Origin: Cyclobacteriaceae bacterium
Lineage (GTDB): Bacteria; Bacteroidota; Bacteroidia; Cytophagales; Cyclobacteriaceae
Length of the DNA stretch: 47,549 nt
Direction of reading: 5' to 3'
NCBI GenBank assembly: GCA_022842845.1
Contig: JALHOT010000021.1
Span: 1 to 47,549 of the forward strand
The notes beneath the pieces are model-generated. The model ran no database searches. It saw nothing but the letters and a program-made list of their open reading frames with translations, and was not told the DNA's origin. The translations under genes were made by a program, and so were the position numbers. Each line of letters opens with the position of its first letter. Position 1 is the first letter of the stretch. Of the stretch, positions 26,294 to 32,414 are shown piece after piece.

Positions 26294-28717
26294 TTATAAT
26301 TTAAGCTGAAGGGTAGTATAGAAAGATCTGCCATCGGAAGGTATGATACCTGGCCCTGGATAGGCATCAGCTCTTCTTGTAAAGTAAGATTGATTTAATA
26401 AATTGTTACAGCTTACTTCAATTGTCCATTTCGAATATTTGTAAGCACAAGAAAAATCCATTACTACGTAAGATGGAATAGCTCCTTCTACTGCTGTGGA
26501 AGATCTTTGAGCATTTGTCGCATCTGAATAATGCTTGTCCACCCAAGAACTCTGTAGACTAAAAGAAAAAGACTTTATAAGTGCCTGCGACCCCATTCTT
26601 AGAATTACCGGTGGCACTAGCTCTACTTTCTTATTAGCTATAGCGCTTTCCTGACTATTAATATAACGTGCATTCAACACTGTTGTATTCAGAAAAGCTG
26701 TCCATTTAAGCATTTTAAAATTGAACATTTCAGCCAACTTAACCTCCGCAAAAGACTCTACACCAATAGTCTGTGCATCAGAAATATTACCCCTAAAGCG
26801 ATAATCGTTGAAAAGTGGGGGTTGGTCAGATCTTAAAACTTGGCCAATTTTTCCATTATAACGCATATAAAATAAAGTAGCCTCTGCAGAAACATACTTC
26901 CACTGTTTGCGTGAACCAATATCTGCTGTGTAGCCGTACTCATCACGTATATTGGGATCGACTACAAGATTAGGATTAACTATACGAAGATCAGAAAAAT
27001 TGATGGCCCTATAGTTCTGTGAAAAATTTGCGTACCACTCGGTAGTCGAGGACGGTTTAAAACTTACGCCAAGCCCTGCAATCACAAAATTTCTCTCCCG
27101 AAGTGAACTATCGGCTACCTTATTTTCTACCACAATATTCCCAGCAGCGTCCAATACTCTTTGTTTATAATACCCTTGTGATCTGGTTCGAATATGTTCA
27201 AAGCGCAAGCCTGGTGTAACACTCCATTTATCAGATAAATTAAAAACATTTTCAACGAAGGCAGCATAATTTCTATTGGGGAACTGATAATCAGAATTTT
27301 CAACATTACCAGGGTTTAGAAAGTAAAAATCAGGACCAGCCTCAGCATTAGCATCTCCTTGTTTTGCTACAGTTGTACCTTCATACAAACGTATACCACC
27401 TAATAAAGCGCTGGTCGATTTACCAAGCTGATAACGATGCAATAGCCTAAGTTCATGCCCAATATTATTGAACTCACCATTGATAAGAGATCTGTTCTCA
27501 CCAAAATCCAACACATTAATACGTTCAAGATTACCGAGGGCCTGACGTTGAGCCATTAAGGTATAAAGCCTGTAGTTTAGTTCTGTGCTTGAAGAGATTT
27601 TATATGTTGACTTCAGTGCTATTAAATTCCAATCAACTTCAAACCAATTTCTATTTCTAAATGACTGACTAGGATTTTGAGAAAACTGCCTGTCAGTTAA
27701 TCCACCTGGTTGTTGTGCCAGGTAATACATTTTTGTGATGTCAAACTGTATATTAAGCCTTTCAAAGGGTGTATAAATAAGTGAAGCATAGGCATTGTAA
27801 TAATCAAAGCCAGCATTTTCCCGGTAGCCATCTCCCTTCTTAATTTGGGCGTATGCATAATAGTTCAATTTACCCTTTCCTATAGTGCCGCCAACAGAAT
27901 TAAAGCTATTGATAAAAGCCCAAGAGCCTAAGGTATTACGACTTGTCCACTCAAACTTCTTCTCTTCATTTCCCTTCTTAAAAATAAAATTGACCAGCCC
28001 GCCAAATTGCGTTCCATATTGTAACGAGGCAGCTCCCCTTACTACTTCAATTCTTTCTAATGCTTCAATGGGTGGTGTATAGTAACTTTCTGGATAACCA
28101 AGTACATCTGCGCTGATATCATAACCGTTTTGGCGCGTGGAGAAATTCGAGGATCGGTTGGGGCTGAGACCACGACCGCCAATACCTAATTGTAATCCAG
28201 CACCATCACTTTCCCAAATATTCAGACCAGTAATCTTTCCAAAAACCTGTCGAGTATTATTAGTAGCAAGGTTAGCTGTCAGATCGTTAATTTGTATTAC
28301 TTCATTTTTTTTTCCTTCATAAATACCAAAATCATGGATAGTATTCAATCTATCTAAACCAAGTACTTTGGTCCTTTCTCCTTTAATTGCTACCTCAGTT
28401 AATGTTGTGGTAAGCGGCTCAAGTTGAAATGATAACGCCACCACTGATTTATCCACAATAACAATTTGTTGTATTGATGCCATATCCTCCAGAAATACGA
28501 TCAAAGTGTATTTTCCGTAGGGTAACATGGGTATTTGAAAAAATCCATTAACATCAGACTCAACAGAAATATTTTGATCGCGAAGTACGATACTTACACC
28601 CGCCAATGCTGTAAGAGATTCTGCATGGGTTACTGTACCTTGAATGCGCCCCACTTGACCATAACAAAAAAGGTGAGTAGAAAATAAAAAAAATAATATC
28701 AAAAAAGTAACACGCAT
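26294..28717 (-). CDS. FecA-like TonB-dependent outer-membrane receptor
   Basis: 807 residues. Signal peptide (to about residue 20), then a carboxypeptidase-regulatory-like domain (GRIQGTVTHAESLTALAGVS) that precedes many Bacteroidota receptors. The plug domain contains RQVFGKITGLNIWES, GIGGRGLSPNRSSNFSTRQN and ERIEVVRGAASLQYGTQFGG, close to ferric dicitrate-type FecA plugs. A 22-strand barrel ends in the aromatic-rich YTTLQLKL. It lacks a SusD partner, so carbohydrate uptake is unlikely. It is last in an operon with an HTTM/VKGC-like membrane enzyme nine bases upstream, an imelysin and a DUF4856 lipoprotein, which points to uptake of iron or an iron complex. Ligand not determined. Confidence 0.92.
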   Translation of the reverse strand: MRVTFLILFFLFSTHLFCYGQVGRIQGTVTHAESLTALAGVSIVLRDQNISVESDVNGFFQIPMLPYGKYTLIVFLEDMASIQQIVIVDKSVVALSFQLEPLTTTLTEVAIKGERTKVLGLDRLNTIHDFGIYEGKKNEVIQINDLTANLATNNTRQVFGKITGLNIWESDGAGLQLGIGGRGLSPNRSSNFSTRQNGYDISADVLGYPESYYTPPIEALERIEVVRGAASLQYGTQFGGLVNFIFKKGNEEKKFEWTSRNTLGSWAFINSFNSVGGTIGKGKLNYYAYAQIKKGDGYRENAGFDYYNAYASLIYTPFERLNIQFDITKMYYLAQQPGGLTDRQFSQNPSQSFRNRNWFEVDWNLIALKSTYKISSSTELNYRLYTLMAQRQALGNLERINVLDFGENRSLINGEFNNIGHELRLLHRYQLGKSTSALLGGIRLYEGTTVAKQGDANAEAGPDFYFLNPGNVENSDYQFPNRNYAAFVENVFNLSDKWSVTPGLRFEHIRTRSQGYYKQRVLDAAGNIVVENKVADSSLRERNFVIAGLGVSFKPSSTTEWYANFSQNYRAINFSDLRIVNPNLVVDPNIRDEYGYTADIGSRKQWKYVSAEATLFYMRYNGKIGQVLRSDQPPLFNDYRFRGNISDAQTIGVESFAEVKLAEMFNFKMLKWTAFLNTTVLNARYINSQESAIANKKVELVPPVILRMGSQALIKSFSFSLQSSWVDKHYSDATNAQRSSTAVEGAIPSYVVMDFSCAYKYSKWTIEVSCNNLLNQSYFTRRADAYPGPGIIPSDGRSFYTTLQLKL

Positions 28718-28726
28718 TTGTAGCTA

Positions 28727-30049
28727 TTAAGGCATTATCCAGTTTTTAGTTTTCCAAGTATCTTCCAATGCGGCAATATTTACTGTTGGATCAATCAAGA
28801 GCCTGCTAGGGGCCCCATTCAATGTTACATACACTTCTGCTCTTACCAATGGATCATTCAGACCACGCTTGATAAATTCGGCTCTCAGAAATTTCGCATA
28901 TTGGAGTATCATATCTGGTTGCATAGCCATCTGTTTTTCCTGATGACTATTCAGGAATTCCGAATTATCAACTACTCCTTCCCTATTTGTAAGCGAATCT
29001 TTAACATAGAATGTTGCTGTACCTGCCTTTTCCATCAACATTACTCTCCATGAAAATCTGTACCCCTCTTCGGTCCAAAAAATATTGCCAGGGTATAGGA
29101 TGTATCTCCACGGAAAAAGCAGATGAAAAACAACAAAACAGATCAAAACCACTTTAACAAAAGTGGGTGTAGTATACGAATGGTTAAAGACAGTAGAGTT
29201 ACCAACATATCCGATTAACTTCTGAATACTCAATAAAAGCTTGTGATGCCATTCAGGAGAAAAAAAGATCAGGCTTGCACTGATCATAACGACAGGAAAA
29301 ACGCCAATCTGAAATAAAACGCCTGTAATAGCATGAAAGAAAACTAACGTAATCCAGGCAAAAATTCTTGTTGGCTTATATAACAAAAGAAAAAAAACGG
29401 AACAATCGAATAACATACCAGCCCAGCTGAAAGCATAAGCAATCCATTCTTGACTTAGTAAGTTTCCAACGACAGGTAAGTGATGATGGGCAGGCAACCA
29501 TATTTTTAATGGCATCGCTTCCATAAGCCAATGATCATTAATCTTAGCAAGGCCGGCAAAGGTATAAACCAGCGCAATCATGAATTGCAGCACCGCTATG
29601 GTCCACCAAGGAGTAAAATTCTCAGAAGGTACGCTCTTTCGCCAAACATCGTAAGAAAAGTACCGATTGGCAGGAAGGAGAATTAACAAGAGGGAAACCC
29701 AACTAACAAAGTAATAATGGTTTAGGTAATATGTAATATCGATTAGTTCTACGTAAGTAAACGAAAGAAAAAATACGATTGCCGATAGTCGATAAAAAGC
29801 ACCAAGCATAATACCTAATGCAGCAAAGAGCATCAAGGCATGTAGTGTATACATGAGCCAAGGTGGCCCCACCTTAATCCAAGAAAAACCATAATAAGTA
29901 AAATGTATGATTGGATCTATGTAATGGTCGTCAATCCAACCAAGGGATATAAATCGAATGGTACTGAGTAGCATTACCAATCCGAATAGAATCCTGAATG
30001 TAACTAAAGGGTAAACAAGTACTGGTGTATCTAATTTTGCTAGCCGCAT
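28727..30049 (-). CDS. HTTM protein, full-length homologue of vitamin K-dependent gamma-glutamyl carboxylase
   Basis: 440 residues with about eight transmembrane helices in the first 330. Two segments line up, from memory, with the active site of human gamma-glutamyl carboxylase: NHYYFVSWVSLLLILLPAN with H111 (human H160 region) and AGLAKINDHW with K169 (human AGVKKLDADW, catalytic base K218). The soluble C-terminal part also matches the human enzyme (EGYRFSWRVM, DMILQYAKFL, LIDPTVNI), so this is more than a generic HTTM fold. The human enzyme carboxylates glutamates using reduced vitamin K; Bacteroidota normally make menaquinone, a possible cofactor. A Leptospira homologue is reported to have altered activity, so carboxylation here is unproven. 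It lies between imelysin (two-base gap) and TonB receptor genes. Confidence 0.87.
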   Translation of the reverse strand: MRLAKLDTPVLVYPLVTFRILFGLVMLLSTIRFISLGWIDDHYIDPIIHFTYYGFSWIKVGPPWLMYTLHALMLFAALGIMLGAFYRLSAIVFFLSFTYVELIDITYYLNHYYFVSWVSLLLILLPANRYFSYDVWRKSVPSENFTPWWTIAVLQFMIALVYTFAGLAKINDHWLMEAMPLKIWLPAHHHLPVVGNLLSQEWIAYAFSWAGMLFDCSVFFLLLYKPTRIFAWITLVFFHAITGVLFQIGVFPVVMISASLIFFSPEWHHKLLLSIQKLIGYVGNSTVFNHSYTTPTFVKVVLICFVVFHLLFPWRYILYPGNIFWTEEGYRFSWRVMLMEKAGTATFYVKDSLTNREGVVDNSEFLNSHQEKQMAMQPDMILQYAKFLRAEFIKRGLNDPLVRAEVYVTLNGAPSRLLIDPTVNIAALEDTWKTKNWIMP

Positions 30050-30051
30050 AA

Positions 30052-31143
30052 TTAATCACCATCACCGCTTGCAAAAGTAATTGCAATCCCCAAAAGTGAT
30101 GACAGATCACTTTTGAAATATCTTGTTTGTTTTTGCAATTCAATACTCAAAATATCAAGTGATTGCTTGTTTGTAGTAATTTGTTGAGAGAAACTTGGTA
30201 GATTGGGTAAATTGATAATAGTATTGTCGACCATCGTCATTTGTTGCTCAGTTGCTTTTATCAACTCCTTCCCACCTGAAACATTTTCCAGGTATTCATA
30301 GAAACCTACTCCCGCTTCGCCATGTCTACTTGTGCCATACCAAATCGATTTCATGGCCATCCAATGTTGCTGGATACCTAATAAAGATCTGCCGCTATAG
30401 TAGGCCTCTACCTTTGCAGGTTCTGATTGTGTCTGCCCTGCTCTCAATCCTAAAGGAAGTGTAACTTTAAAGTTCTTTAATGCCTCAAAACTTTTTACAA
30501 ATTCGTTATACAACTCTGAGGTTGAAGAGCCAGCATCGGTACAAAAAAAAGCAATAAAAGCAGGCTTGTACACCCCTCCCCATTCGGAAAGTACAGATTG
30601 CACTTTTGATCTTATGTTTTGAAGTAGTGCCAATGAGAATTTCTTTCTATTCTCACTTGCCATTGATGCTACAAGTGCCTGCTGATTATTATCTACTCTG
30701 AATAATAAATATTCTAAGGCAAAAATACCTCTGGCATCCCGGTTGAAGTCATTAAGATTAAATGTGCCACTTTGGAGTATCCCCTCCACTTTTGTTTCGC
30801 TTACCGGAAACGTTCCAATTTCTTCAGTCAGACTTTTTTCCAAACCGTCCTCACCAGCGGGTCCAAAGTTAAAGGCAGTTGCCCATTGCCAATCTGTGTA
30901 CAAAACAACCCAGTCTTGCTGCGCTAGTATGAGAGTTTCAATGGTGGGATTATTGGTAAAATTTCTAAGTGACGATTCGAGTTTGGCGGAAGAATTATCC
31001 AACTGTTGATAAGATGGAATAATAAGATTATCTGCTATCTCTGTAAGCAATAATGTTCTGTTAAAAGAATCACCAACATTTTCACTTCCATTACAAGCAA
31101 CTAATCCAAATGCAAATACCAATACAATGAATCTATTCTTCAT
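30052..31143 (-). CDS. Imelysin (peptidase M75) family lipoprotein
   Basis: 363 residues from the ATG at 31143; a TTG six bases earlier is also in frame. Lipoprotein signal with cysteine 17 in GLVAC. The imelysin fold is two helical bundles; the conserved segment RGIFALEYLLFR corresponds to the family's ALEYLLF core, and the N-terminal half has FNFGPAGEDGLEKSLTEEIG. The GxHxxE motif of classic imelysins is not evident. Imelysin-like proteins are iron-regulated and thought to bind iron or haem rather than act as peptidases. Here it is anchored in a membrane by lipid and co-transcribed with an outer-membrane receptor, which supports capture of iron. Confidence 0.88.
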   Translation of the reverse strand: MKNRFIVLVFAFGLVACNGSENVGDSFNRTLLLTEIADNLIIPSYQQLDNSSAKLESSLRNFTNNPTIETLILAQQDWVVLYTDWQWATAFNFGPAGEDGLEKSLTEEIGTFPVSETKVEGILQSGTFNLNDFNRDARGIFALEYLLFRVDNNQQALVASMASENRKKFSLALLQNIRSKVQSVLSEWGGVYKPAFIAFFCTDAGSSTSELYNEFVKSFEALKNFKVTLPLGLRAGQTQSEPAKVEAYYSGRSLLGIQQHWMAMKSIWYGTSRHGEAGVGFYEYLENVSGGKELIKATEQQMTMVDNTIINLPNLPSFSQQITTNKQSLDILSIELQKQTRYFKSDLSSLLGIAITFASGDGD

Positions 31144-31234
31144 ATCCAAAAATCAACTTTGACTCACTTGATACCAAACTTTTTTTAAGCAGTCTTGAAG
31201 GTTACATCTACATGCTCAATACAATAACGAATAA

Positions 31235-32350
31235 TTATCTTTGTTGTTCGCTTACCCAGTTTTTCTTAAAATCCTCGATCTGTTGATCAGTAAATCCGTA
31301 AATTCCTTTAAGCTTAGTAATTACCTGTTGCAGCTTTGGTAATTGGTTAACGGGATCTGTGATAAACAAATAAGACGTTGGTGTTGCATTGTATGGTGCA
31401 TTTAATAGAACCAATATTTCATCAATCTCAGCATCAGTAATTATTTTATGTTGTTGCGGTATTGTACGCCATCCATGCGTAAAGCCAACAGCCTCGCCAT
31501 AAGCATGCAATGCATTAGCTTTTTGTACCACGGTTGGAGAGGTAGCACTCATAATTGATATCACAGCATGGCAATAGTTAATGATCGTTGCTGCATTCAC
31601 TTTTTCCCACGTTTCTTTGATGGATTCCGCTGCCTGCTGTTGTTCAACTTCATATTCATTACCAGCCTTTACAGCAGCCTGCAATTTGATAAAGTCATTT
31701 TTCAATTGTGTGTAAAAACCATTTCCATCATTTTTATCTCTTCGGGCAGCATAAACTGCTGCTAATTTATCTGGTTGAGTATGCTTTGTTGCATCACTGC
31801 TGCTTGGAAAAGATGGATTAGCGCCAAAGATGGCTAATACTTTATCGGAAGTACTATTATCTAACGGTCCACTTAATAAGTTTATGGCATGATGGTAGAG
31901 TAAAGAACCAAACTGTCCCTTTTCTATGAGTTGCTCTAATTCAAGTCCGTTTTCATCGAATAAATAACCTCCGTAAACACCACCTTGTGCTACAGGTGTA
32001 CCTGGTGTATACGTAGTACCACTAGCCTTGCTCAATTCGTTAAAAAAACCATTCGTTCCCTCTAATCTTCCAGCATAATATGCTGTGTTTAAAGATTTGA
32101 TTGTTGGGTTGCCCGCATTGTATAATTCAAGCAGTGTTGCATTATTAACGATCGTTCCTGAAACACGTGCTTTTTTAGTCTCGTTAACCAAAGCAATGAG
32201 TTGGTTCGTCACTGCTAGTTCAGTGCTGGCGTTTGTTATAAAATCTACTCCATTGTATTCGCTTGGAATGATAAGCGGATCTTTTTCTGATTCGCAGGCA
32301 GTAGATAAACCTGCCATGATGATAGTGAGTACAAAAGTAAGTTTTCTCAT
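31235..32350 (-). CDS. DUF4856 family lipoprotein, first gene of the iron-type operon
   Basis: 371 residues. Lipoprotein signal with lipobox LSTAC, cysteine 19, followed by acidic residues (CESEKDP), a composition that in Bacteroidota can direct lipoproteins to the cell surface. SEYNGVDFITNAS opens the mature domain and GLELEQLIEKGQFGSLLYHH with a downstream helical region fits DUF4856, which often neighbours imelysin genes. Function is unknown; association suggests a surface partner in metal capture. It follows the promoter directly, and a DtxR-like palindrome lies just 5-24 bases before its ATG. An 91-base gap to the imelysin gene holds no clear extra promoter. Confidence 0.75.
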   Translation of the reverse strand: MRKLTFVLTIIMAGLSTACESEKDPLIIPSEYNGVDFITNASTELAVTNQLIALVNETKKARVSGTIVNNATLLELYNAGNPTIKSLNTAYYAGRLEGTNGFFNELSKASGTTYTPGTPVAQGGVYGGYLFDENGLELEQLIEKGQFGSLLYHHAINLLSGPLDNSTSDKVLAIFGANPSFPSSSDATKHTQPDKLAAVYAARRDKNDGNGFYTQLKNDFIKLQAAVKAGNEYEVEQQQAAESIKETWEKVNAATIINYCHAVISIMSATSPTVVQKANALHAYGEAVGFTHGWRTIPQQHKIITDAEIDEILVLLNAPYNATPTSYLFITDPVNQLPKLQQVITKLKGIYGFTDQQIEDFKKNWVSEQQR

Positions 32351-32355
32351 AATTC

Positions 32356-32374
32356 TTAGTTAGACTAATTCTAA
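32356..32374. promoter_or_regulatory. DtxR/IdeR-like operator before the DUF4856-imelysin-HTTM-TonB operon
   Basis: The 19-mer TTAGTTAGACTAATTCTAA has outer TTAG and CTAA arms 11 bases apart and an inner TTAG-A-CTAA palindrome. The known DtxR/IdeR consensus has the same 19-bp length and the same TTAG/CTAA ends. It lies directly downstream of the -7 box, covering the likely transcription start, an expected place for a repressor. No Fur-type box was seen. Confidence 0.5.
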
Positions 32375-32382
32375 ATATGCTG

Positions 32383-32414
32383 CAAGTATAGAGCCTGTTT
32401 AGAATTATTCCAAA
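32383..32414 (-). promoter_or_regulatory. Bacteroidota-type promoter of the iron-type operon
   Basis: On the minus strand, TTTG (32414-32411) and TATACTTG (32390-32383) are separated by exactly 20 bases. The -7 box differs from TAnnTTTG at one base. The -33 box touches the stop codon of the upstream Nudix gene. Transcription should begin near 32376, next to the palindromic operator. Confidence 0.68.

Follow-up and report, generated by a model that had tools for sequence, protein, structure and literature searches.

The 47,549-nucleotide stretch of DNA analyzed here (the window; contig JALHOT010000021.1 of a Cyclobacteriaceae bacterium) carries a four-gene operon on its minus strand, encoding a DUF4856 lipoprotein, an imelysin-like lipoprotein, a homolog of the vitamin-K-dependent gamma-carboxylase (VKGC) and a TonB-dependent outer-membrane receptor. 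A near-complete core of the human carboxylase GGCX, with its main catalytic residues, lies in this compact operon under an iron operator. An iron role for the operon is strongly supported, and its repression by Fur is likely to judge from the predicted operator. We give even chances to the reading that this is a Fur-repressed iron-starvation operon in which the VKGC carboxylates glutamates on an exported partner and so aids iron capture. An iron response of these genes has already been published for a relative; the phylum-wide operon with an intact active site is added here.

Conservation of the operon

The sequence-only reading of the window had listed four minus-strand genes. The open reading frames (ORFs) and the gaps of 91 bases (DUF4856-imelysin), 2 bases (imelysin-VKGC) and 9 bases (VKGC-receptor) are as it gave them, and Pfam supports each of its gene names. 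Its expectation that the linkage is conserved across Bacteroidota held when gene neighborhoods were compared. Among 230 distinct VKGC genes, 153 lay in the full DUF4856-imelysin-VKGC-receptor order, 33 in a partial arrangement (17 of these near contig ends) and 44 in none, and the recurrence of the same order in so many of them means that the arrangement is not due to chance. Imelysin and receptor genes each accompanied 177 of the 230 and DUF4856 genes 159. Median gaps across 162 loci were 53, 3 and -20 bases, measured from the longest ORF starts.

The neighborhoods comprised 160 loci from family and phylum genomes and 80 named loci. The 160 were cut from 202 distinct VKGC matches and in family f1 were mostly the better-scoring ones, so that stand-alone copies are under-sampled. 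The ORF caller returned no VKGC in three of the 240 loci (L123, L131, and L233). Eleven groups of identical VKGCs were merged for the 230-gene and other "distinct" counts, and the counts based on 177 receptors, 184 imelysins and 162 loci still contain duplicates. The VKGC alignment holds the 226 of 230 distinct proteins longer than 350 amino acids. Whole-genome searches found the VKGC lumenal domain in 78 of 148 family genomes and 82 of 395 phylum genomes, and DUF4856 in 56 of 148 and 58 of 395, respectively. A VKGC lay no more than 6 kb downstream on the same strand for 103 of 115 DUF4856 matches, in a coordinate test that used all 202 VKGCs and counted each DUF4856 gene once, leaving out second pieces (G027 and G411) and rows that both lists contained.

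VKGC relatives occur in at least 570 places in one bacterial species collection, including loci of Flavobacterium gillisiae DSM 22376 and Pontibacter ruber JC213; gene order there was read for the best 80 of at least 570 confirmed relatives. Organism names in these best 80 are of the Bacteroidota group, among them Flavobacterium, Pontibacter, Fodinibius and Candidatus Kapaibacterium; the two exceptions are titled only "bacterium." The VKGC was absent from three sampled genomes of the same genus. A quick tree built from 100 rows placed the operon VKGCs in one well-supported group and stand-alone VKGCs in a second.

Several loci depart from the common layout. Some lack DUF4856 and have, next to the imelysin, VKGC and receptor genes, a second imelysin and a di-heme oxidoreductase (DHOR, PF06537). 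Extended loci that combine a DHOR-length ORF with a second imelysin, VKGC and receptor are L078, L180, L193, L218, L228, and L230; in L078 and L180, Pfam identified the DHOR. A stand-alone VKGC with its main catalytic residues intact lies between ribF and serS in L121 (6206-9858), where Pfam found neither imelysin nor receptor, and L126, L130, L138, L139, and L145 have a similar layout judged by ORF lengths. In L171 and L194 two adjoining ORFs both match VKGC, which points to a gene split in two or to a tandem pair. DUF4856 genes without a VKGC were seen next to an imelysin gene only (L331), alone (L329 and L330) and among genes with lipoprotein-like starts (L328).

Iron control

Metal regulation began as a guess in the sequence-only reading and gained support from a predicted Fur-type operator 6 bases before the DUF4856 start (Table 1), which matches the published Fur box ATTTAGAATTATTCTAAAT at 17 of 19 positions. 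A dyad search of the operon promoters, made before the Fur paper was seen, gave TTATTTAGA-N5-TCTAAATAA. At 15 or more of 18 positions, this dyad was present before 115 of 131 dereplicated operons, in 58 of 1444 other upstream regions (17 of these 58 being an operon's own site), in none of 131 shuffles and before none of 44 stand-alone VKGCs. The promoters counted are also those that yielded the consensus; the independent check is the published Fur box.

That box, the core of the operon palindrome, comes from Riemerella anatipestifer, where gel shifts were done on other promoters (PMC5609570). Table 4 of the same paper lists RAYM_09779 (TonB receptor), RAYM_09784 (vitamin K-dependent gamma-carboxylase), RAYM_09789 (imelysin) and RAYM_09794 (hypothetical), the last of which is probably the DUF4856 protein. 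In the units of that table, the four genes rose by 2.11-3.07 on iron restriction and by 1.36-1.93 on deletion of fur in the presence of iron. These data and the recurrent operator support the iron control proposed from the sequence. PMC5609570 is the paper we found that names imelysin and VKGC together; we found no fuller account, and others may exist. The parts consulted of PMC9478572 and PMC5561996 mention imelysins without VKGC, and those of PMC4555120 give general background only.

In the host genome, operator-like sites with up to three mismatches numbered nine, vs. four in a reversed-pattern control. The operon and hemA sites have two mismatches each; the feoA-feoB site has three, near the control rate. 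The hemA site (L301, contig C3, 174713-174735) sits between hemA and a divergently oriented gene and suggests that heme synthesis in the host may also be under iron control. A site before a putative SdhC gene, named by eye, was not used; Pfam found no family there. Another site, in L305 (contig C7, near 157 kb), falls inside an ORF of at least 842 amino acids beginning MKKILGLDLGTTSIGWAL and is probably due to chance; by its motif, this ORF looks like a Cas9.

Eleven of 12 other genomes contained sites, 26 in total, of which 18 were read. They lie at operon promoters (L310, L317, and L318), flavodoxin genes (L312 and L321), TonB-receptor plug genes (L313, L316, L319, L323, and L327) and genes for solute-binding proteins (L325 and L326), which we take to be of the iron type; the other six have unrelated or unassigned genes nearby (L311, L314, L315, L320, L322, and L324). 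The L310 site also adjoins a ferritin gene that is divergent from the operon.

The carboxylase

The VKGC carries both an HTTM region (PF05090, 248.9 bits) and a VKGC lumenal domain (PF22777, 181.4 bits), and it is the single HTTM match in the host genome. Its predicted fold covers the whole GGCX core. All 226 distinct aligned VKGCs share six of the main catalytic and quinone-pocket residues without exception, while operon members average about 50% identity; the equivalents of N159, H160, K218 and W223 are also kept in 40 of 40 stand-alone VKGCs. In GGCX, Lys218 serves as the base that takes a proton from vitamin K hydroquinone, and N159 and H160 belong to the Glu pocket, N159 not being among the vitamin K contacts named (PMC12589487). 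On this alignment and predicted fold, the VKGC is a full-core GGCX homolog with intact vitamin-K and Glu pockets. Menaquinone genes were found in the host genome. Carboxylation of Glu with menaquinol would be plausible chemically, since both pockets are intact within a full core.

Partner proteins

Only PF09375 was detected by Pfam in the imelysin (100.1 bits, cut-off 23.5), with no cupredoxin-like N-terminal domain of the kind found in EfeO. Its motif GIFALE has the form GxxxxE, which replaces GxHxxE in IPPA-family imelysins (PMC3143127). In the 184 VKGC-linked imelysins the Gly is present in all 184, the His position is mostly Pro (117 of 184) and the last position is Asp in 117 and Glu in 51; residue numbers for these motif and conservation counts run from a TTG at 31149 that also opens the frame, and two is subtracted for numbering from the ATG. 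The C-terminal Asp-Gly-Asp (DGD) tail was considered as a mark of VKGC linkage and rejected, because the Psychrobacter IPPA (3pf0) also ends in DGD. Six of 22 unlinked imelysins ended in DGD by script, one of them (L233) in a locus with a VKGC that the ORF caller had missed. PMC3143127 makes IPPA the equivalent of PA4372 within a similar operon, and the tail of 3pf0 then makes DGD look like a feature of that imelysin family. The imelysin is of the IPPA/PA4372 type, judged by its GxxxxE motif and the DGD tail that it shares with Psychrobacter IPPA. A protein search with the imelysin alignment returned 1892 proteins, with Bacteroidota-group names in the best 120 of 1892; it yielded no set of imelysins lacking VKGC for comparison and was left aside.

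DUF4856 was recognized by PF16148 (31.2 bits, gathering cut-off 22.3). Its predicted structure is all-helical (predicted local distance difference test, pLDDT, 94.9), and the model has no clear relative among solved structures. The seven residues after the lipobox Cys hold a mean of 2.6 Asp or Glu in the DUF4856 proteins (lipobox recognized in 156 of 168) and 1.8 in the imelysins (175 of 188). An acidic stretch at this place is a feature of surface-exported Bacteroidota lipoproteins.

The receptor contains a TonB receptor barrel, a plug and CarbopepD_reg_2 by Pfam. The sequence-only reading had called it FecA-like. This is fair in that FecA chains were the only solved structures matching at E <= 1e-10 (nearest E 3e-15); it did not extend to the NCBIfam FecA equivalog, against which the receptor scored 94.2 bits for a cut-off of 1100. 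Among 177 linked receptors (168 distinct), 114 columns are conserved at 97% or more, and such strong conservation suggests that the orthologs may bind one shared ligand. Close receptors also occur without VKGC: nine matches with E <= 1e-100 that span most of the protein were found in 7 of 20 VKGC-less genomes. Receptor E593, present in 177 of 177 linked receptors and replaced by Ala in four of four close homologs from VKGC-less genomes, was tried as a carboxylation site and dropped, as FecA has Glu there.

Table 1. Features of the operon and its promoter region, in window positions.
Feature	Positions	Strand	Evidence
DUF4856 lipoprotein, 371 aa	31235..32350	-	Pfam, predicted structure
Imelysin-like lipoprotein, 363 aa, IPPA/PA4372 type	30052..31143	-	ATG start; Pfam, motif comparison
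VKGC, 440 aa, HTTM + VKGC lumenal domain	28727..30049	-	Pfam
TonB-dependent outer-membrane receptor, FecA-like, 807 aa, N-terminal CarbopepD_reg_2 domain	26294..28717	-	Pfam, solved-structure matches
Predicted Fur operator ATATTTAGAATTAGTCTAACTAA (minus-strand reading)	32356..32378		16/18 consensus positions; 17/19 of published Fur box
Candidate Bacteroidota-type promoter: TTTG (32414-32411), 20 bases, TATACTTG (32390-32383)	32383..32414	-	Read by eye
VKGC Asn110-His111 codons (GGCX Asn159-His160, Glu pocket)	29717..29722	-	226/226 distinct aligned VKGCs
VKGC Lys169 codon (GGCX Lys218)	29543..29545	-	Alignment; 226/226 distinct aligned VKGCs
VKGC Trp174 codon (GGCX Trp223, vitamin K pocket)	29528..29530	-	226/226 distinct aligned VKGCs
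Imelysin C-terminal Asp-Gly-Asp codons	30055..30063	-	DGD ends 168/173 distinct VKGC-linked imelysins; also IPPA 3pf0

A NUDIX gene lies 64 bases upstream of the operon on the same strand. The candidate promoter, assigned by eye from the consensus TTTG/TAnnTTTG, begins directly behind the stop codon of the NUDIX gene, so that this gene does not have to be transcribed with the operon. On the opposite strand, 3' of the operon, are a CTP_transf_like gene (coaD by eye) and a DUF3822 gene.

Proposed mechanism and its alternatives

When iron is low, Fur would be released from the operator, and the two lipoproteins and the receptor would be made and exported. The VKGC, in the inner membrane and probably facing the periplasm, would draw menaquinol from the respiratory pool and, with oxygen and CO2, modify glutamates of a partner crossing the periplasm, presumably carboxylating them and not merely oxidizing menaquinol. 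The gamma-carboxyglutamate (Gla) so formed may bind iron; the receptor would take up an iron chelate via TonB, with the imelysin and DUF4856 protein as surface or periplasmic binding proteins. The Gla step is plausible in light of the intact active site. We favor carboxylation of an operon partner because the Glu pocket is intact, exported proteins are in constant company with the VKGC and menaquinone genes are present. The narrower proposal, that Bacteroidota use a Fur-controlled, menaquinol-dependent gamma-carboxylation to make Gla on a surface iron-uptake protein, with iron in place of calcium as the bound metal, is tentative, and we would lean somewhat against it.

Several observations weigh against this scheme. 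On the side of iron control, the operator stood before the imelysin gene in only 6 of 17 loci that have imelysin, VKGC and receptor without DUF4856. Iron restriction still raised RAYM_09779-09794 (2.70-3.07) in the R. anatipestifer fur mutant, which means that something besides Fur responds to iron in that species; RAYM_09794 and RAYM_09784 appear a single time each in the main text, namely in Table 4, so no Fur box is given for either (PMC5609570). In the enzyme, the match to human GGCX stops at residue 504, with which the final VKGC residue pairs, so the remainder of the lumenal domain, including part of the propeptide groove, is missing; operon members carry Ala, Ser, Trp or Phe in place of K217, and Gln replaces R436. 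The animal epoxide-recycling enzyme VKOR showed no co-occurrence with VKGC (18 of 82 VKGC genomes vs. 74 of 313 others, and none in the host genome), and the idea of a VKOR partnership was dropped. Among the partners, DUF4856 E286 is present in 158 of 158 distinct linked proteins, yet is kept in two of four VKGC-less homologs; imelysin E248 aligns with a Glu in the Bacteroides ovatus imelysin; and eight receptor Glu are at least 95% conserved, of which four VKGC-less homologs keep all but E593 (E139 being Asp in one). Comparison of linked with VKGC-less imelysins, DUF4856 proteins and receptors thus revealed no conserved Glu that depends on VKGC. Finally, stand-alone copies keep the active-site residues, so a VKGC needs no nearby partners.

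Mirror-tree analysis of 133 dereplicated loci (of 154) gave partial correlations of 0.485 for VKGC and receptor (5-95% range 0.423-0.543), 0.349 for VKGC and imelysin and 0.221 for VKGC and DUF4856. This ranks the partners weakly, as conserved proteins yield cleaner distances. The sequence-only reading had placed the carboxylated Glu on the imelysin or the DUF4856 lipoprotein, a choice for which we found no support: VKGC distances track the receptor more, though this is weak evidence, and neither lipoprotein showed a VKGC-specific Glu. Imelysin and receptor are likely the best candidates, because each accompanies more VKGCs than DUF4856 does and the distance test weakly favors the receptor. 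The tight VKGC-receptor correlation would also suit a catalytically inactive VKGC acting in the membrane as a scaffold, or as a chaperone, on which the receptor or the lipoproteins are assembled, but invariance of six of the main catalytic and quinone-pocket residues among proteins only half identical makes this very improbable.

A substrate outside the operon, either an exported protein or a peptide-like iron ligand, is unlikely although it accommodates several of the findings above. The operon would then merely share Fur control with the VKGC. Stand-alone paralogs with the same main active-site residues, the lack of a VKGC-specific partner Glu and five rows of operon-clade VKGCs without adjacent partners fit such a substrate, whereas the near-strict gene order across the phylum does not, and all five orphan genomes have an imelysin match elsewhere (one a fragment). 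The main rival, to which we assign a similarly low probability, is close to the second idea of the sequence-only reading. It makes the VKGC a menaquinol-driven oxygenase or reductase whose target is iron or an iron ligand, a role that DHOR or EfeB fills in other imelysin loci, with no carboxylation of Glu. Other imelysin loci pair imelysin with an EfeB/DUF1111-type enzyme (PMC3143127), and the variant loci described above combine DHOR with imelysin, VKGC and receptor. In those variants, however, which were chosen for having a VKGC, the DHOR adjoins the VKGC and does not replace it, and the Glu-pocket residue N159, which PMC12589487 does not name as a vitamin K contact, is invariant in every aligned VKGC.

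Formation of Gla is, to our knowledge, known mainly from animals. Carboxylation of an operon partner, if true, would mean that bacterial iron uptake involves a new post-translational modification, a bacterial counterpart and possibly an older use of blood-clotting chemistry. The function of prokaryotic VKGC homologs becomes directly testable, since the operon supplies three candidate substrates and a growth condition.

Comparison with known systems

Relative to human GGCX (PDB 9wfc, 9bvk, and others), the VKGC lacks the lumenal part past residue 504 and the arch, so that the propeptide-binding domain of the animal enzyme is incomplete in it. Beyond the changes at K217 and R436, M401 is Val and the propeptide contact Y425 is not conserved, and no VKOR was found in the host genome. 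The EfeUOB iron transporter likewise has an imelysin-like domain within an iron-uptake operon (PMC3143127), but none of the four genes here is EfeU-like, Pfam found no cupredoxin domain and the enzyme is a VKGC, not a peroxidase. The loci with DHOR and a second imelysin recall the Fur-regulated imelysin operon of Pseudomonas (PMC3143127). The IPPA/PA4372 operon shares with ours an IPPA-type imelysin with GxxxxE (same source), a C-terminal DGD and Fur control, which is predicted for ours. In place of its EfeB-like enzyme the window operon has VKGC and receptor, and DUF4856 in place of its GxHxxE imelysin; a GxHxxE imelysin with an EfeB-like/DUF1111 gene is absent from the window operon and present in variants such as L180 and L078. 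RAYM_09779-09794 of R. anatipestifer are listed as Fur targets, and the parts of PMC5609570 seen do not discuss the function of the carboxylase; we liken them by annotation. The four genes carry successive locus tags, their annotations match those of the window genes, and they are under the control of iron and Fur, as is proposed for the operon here.

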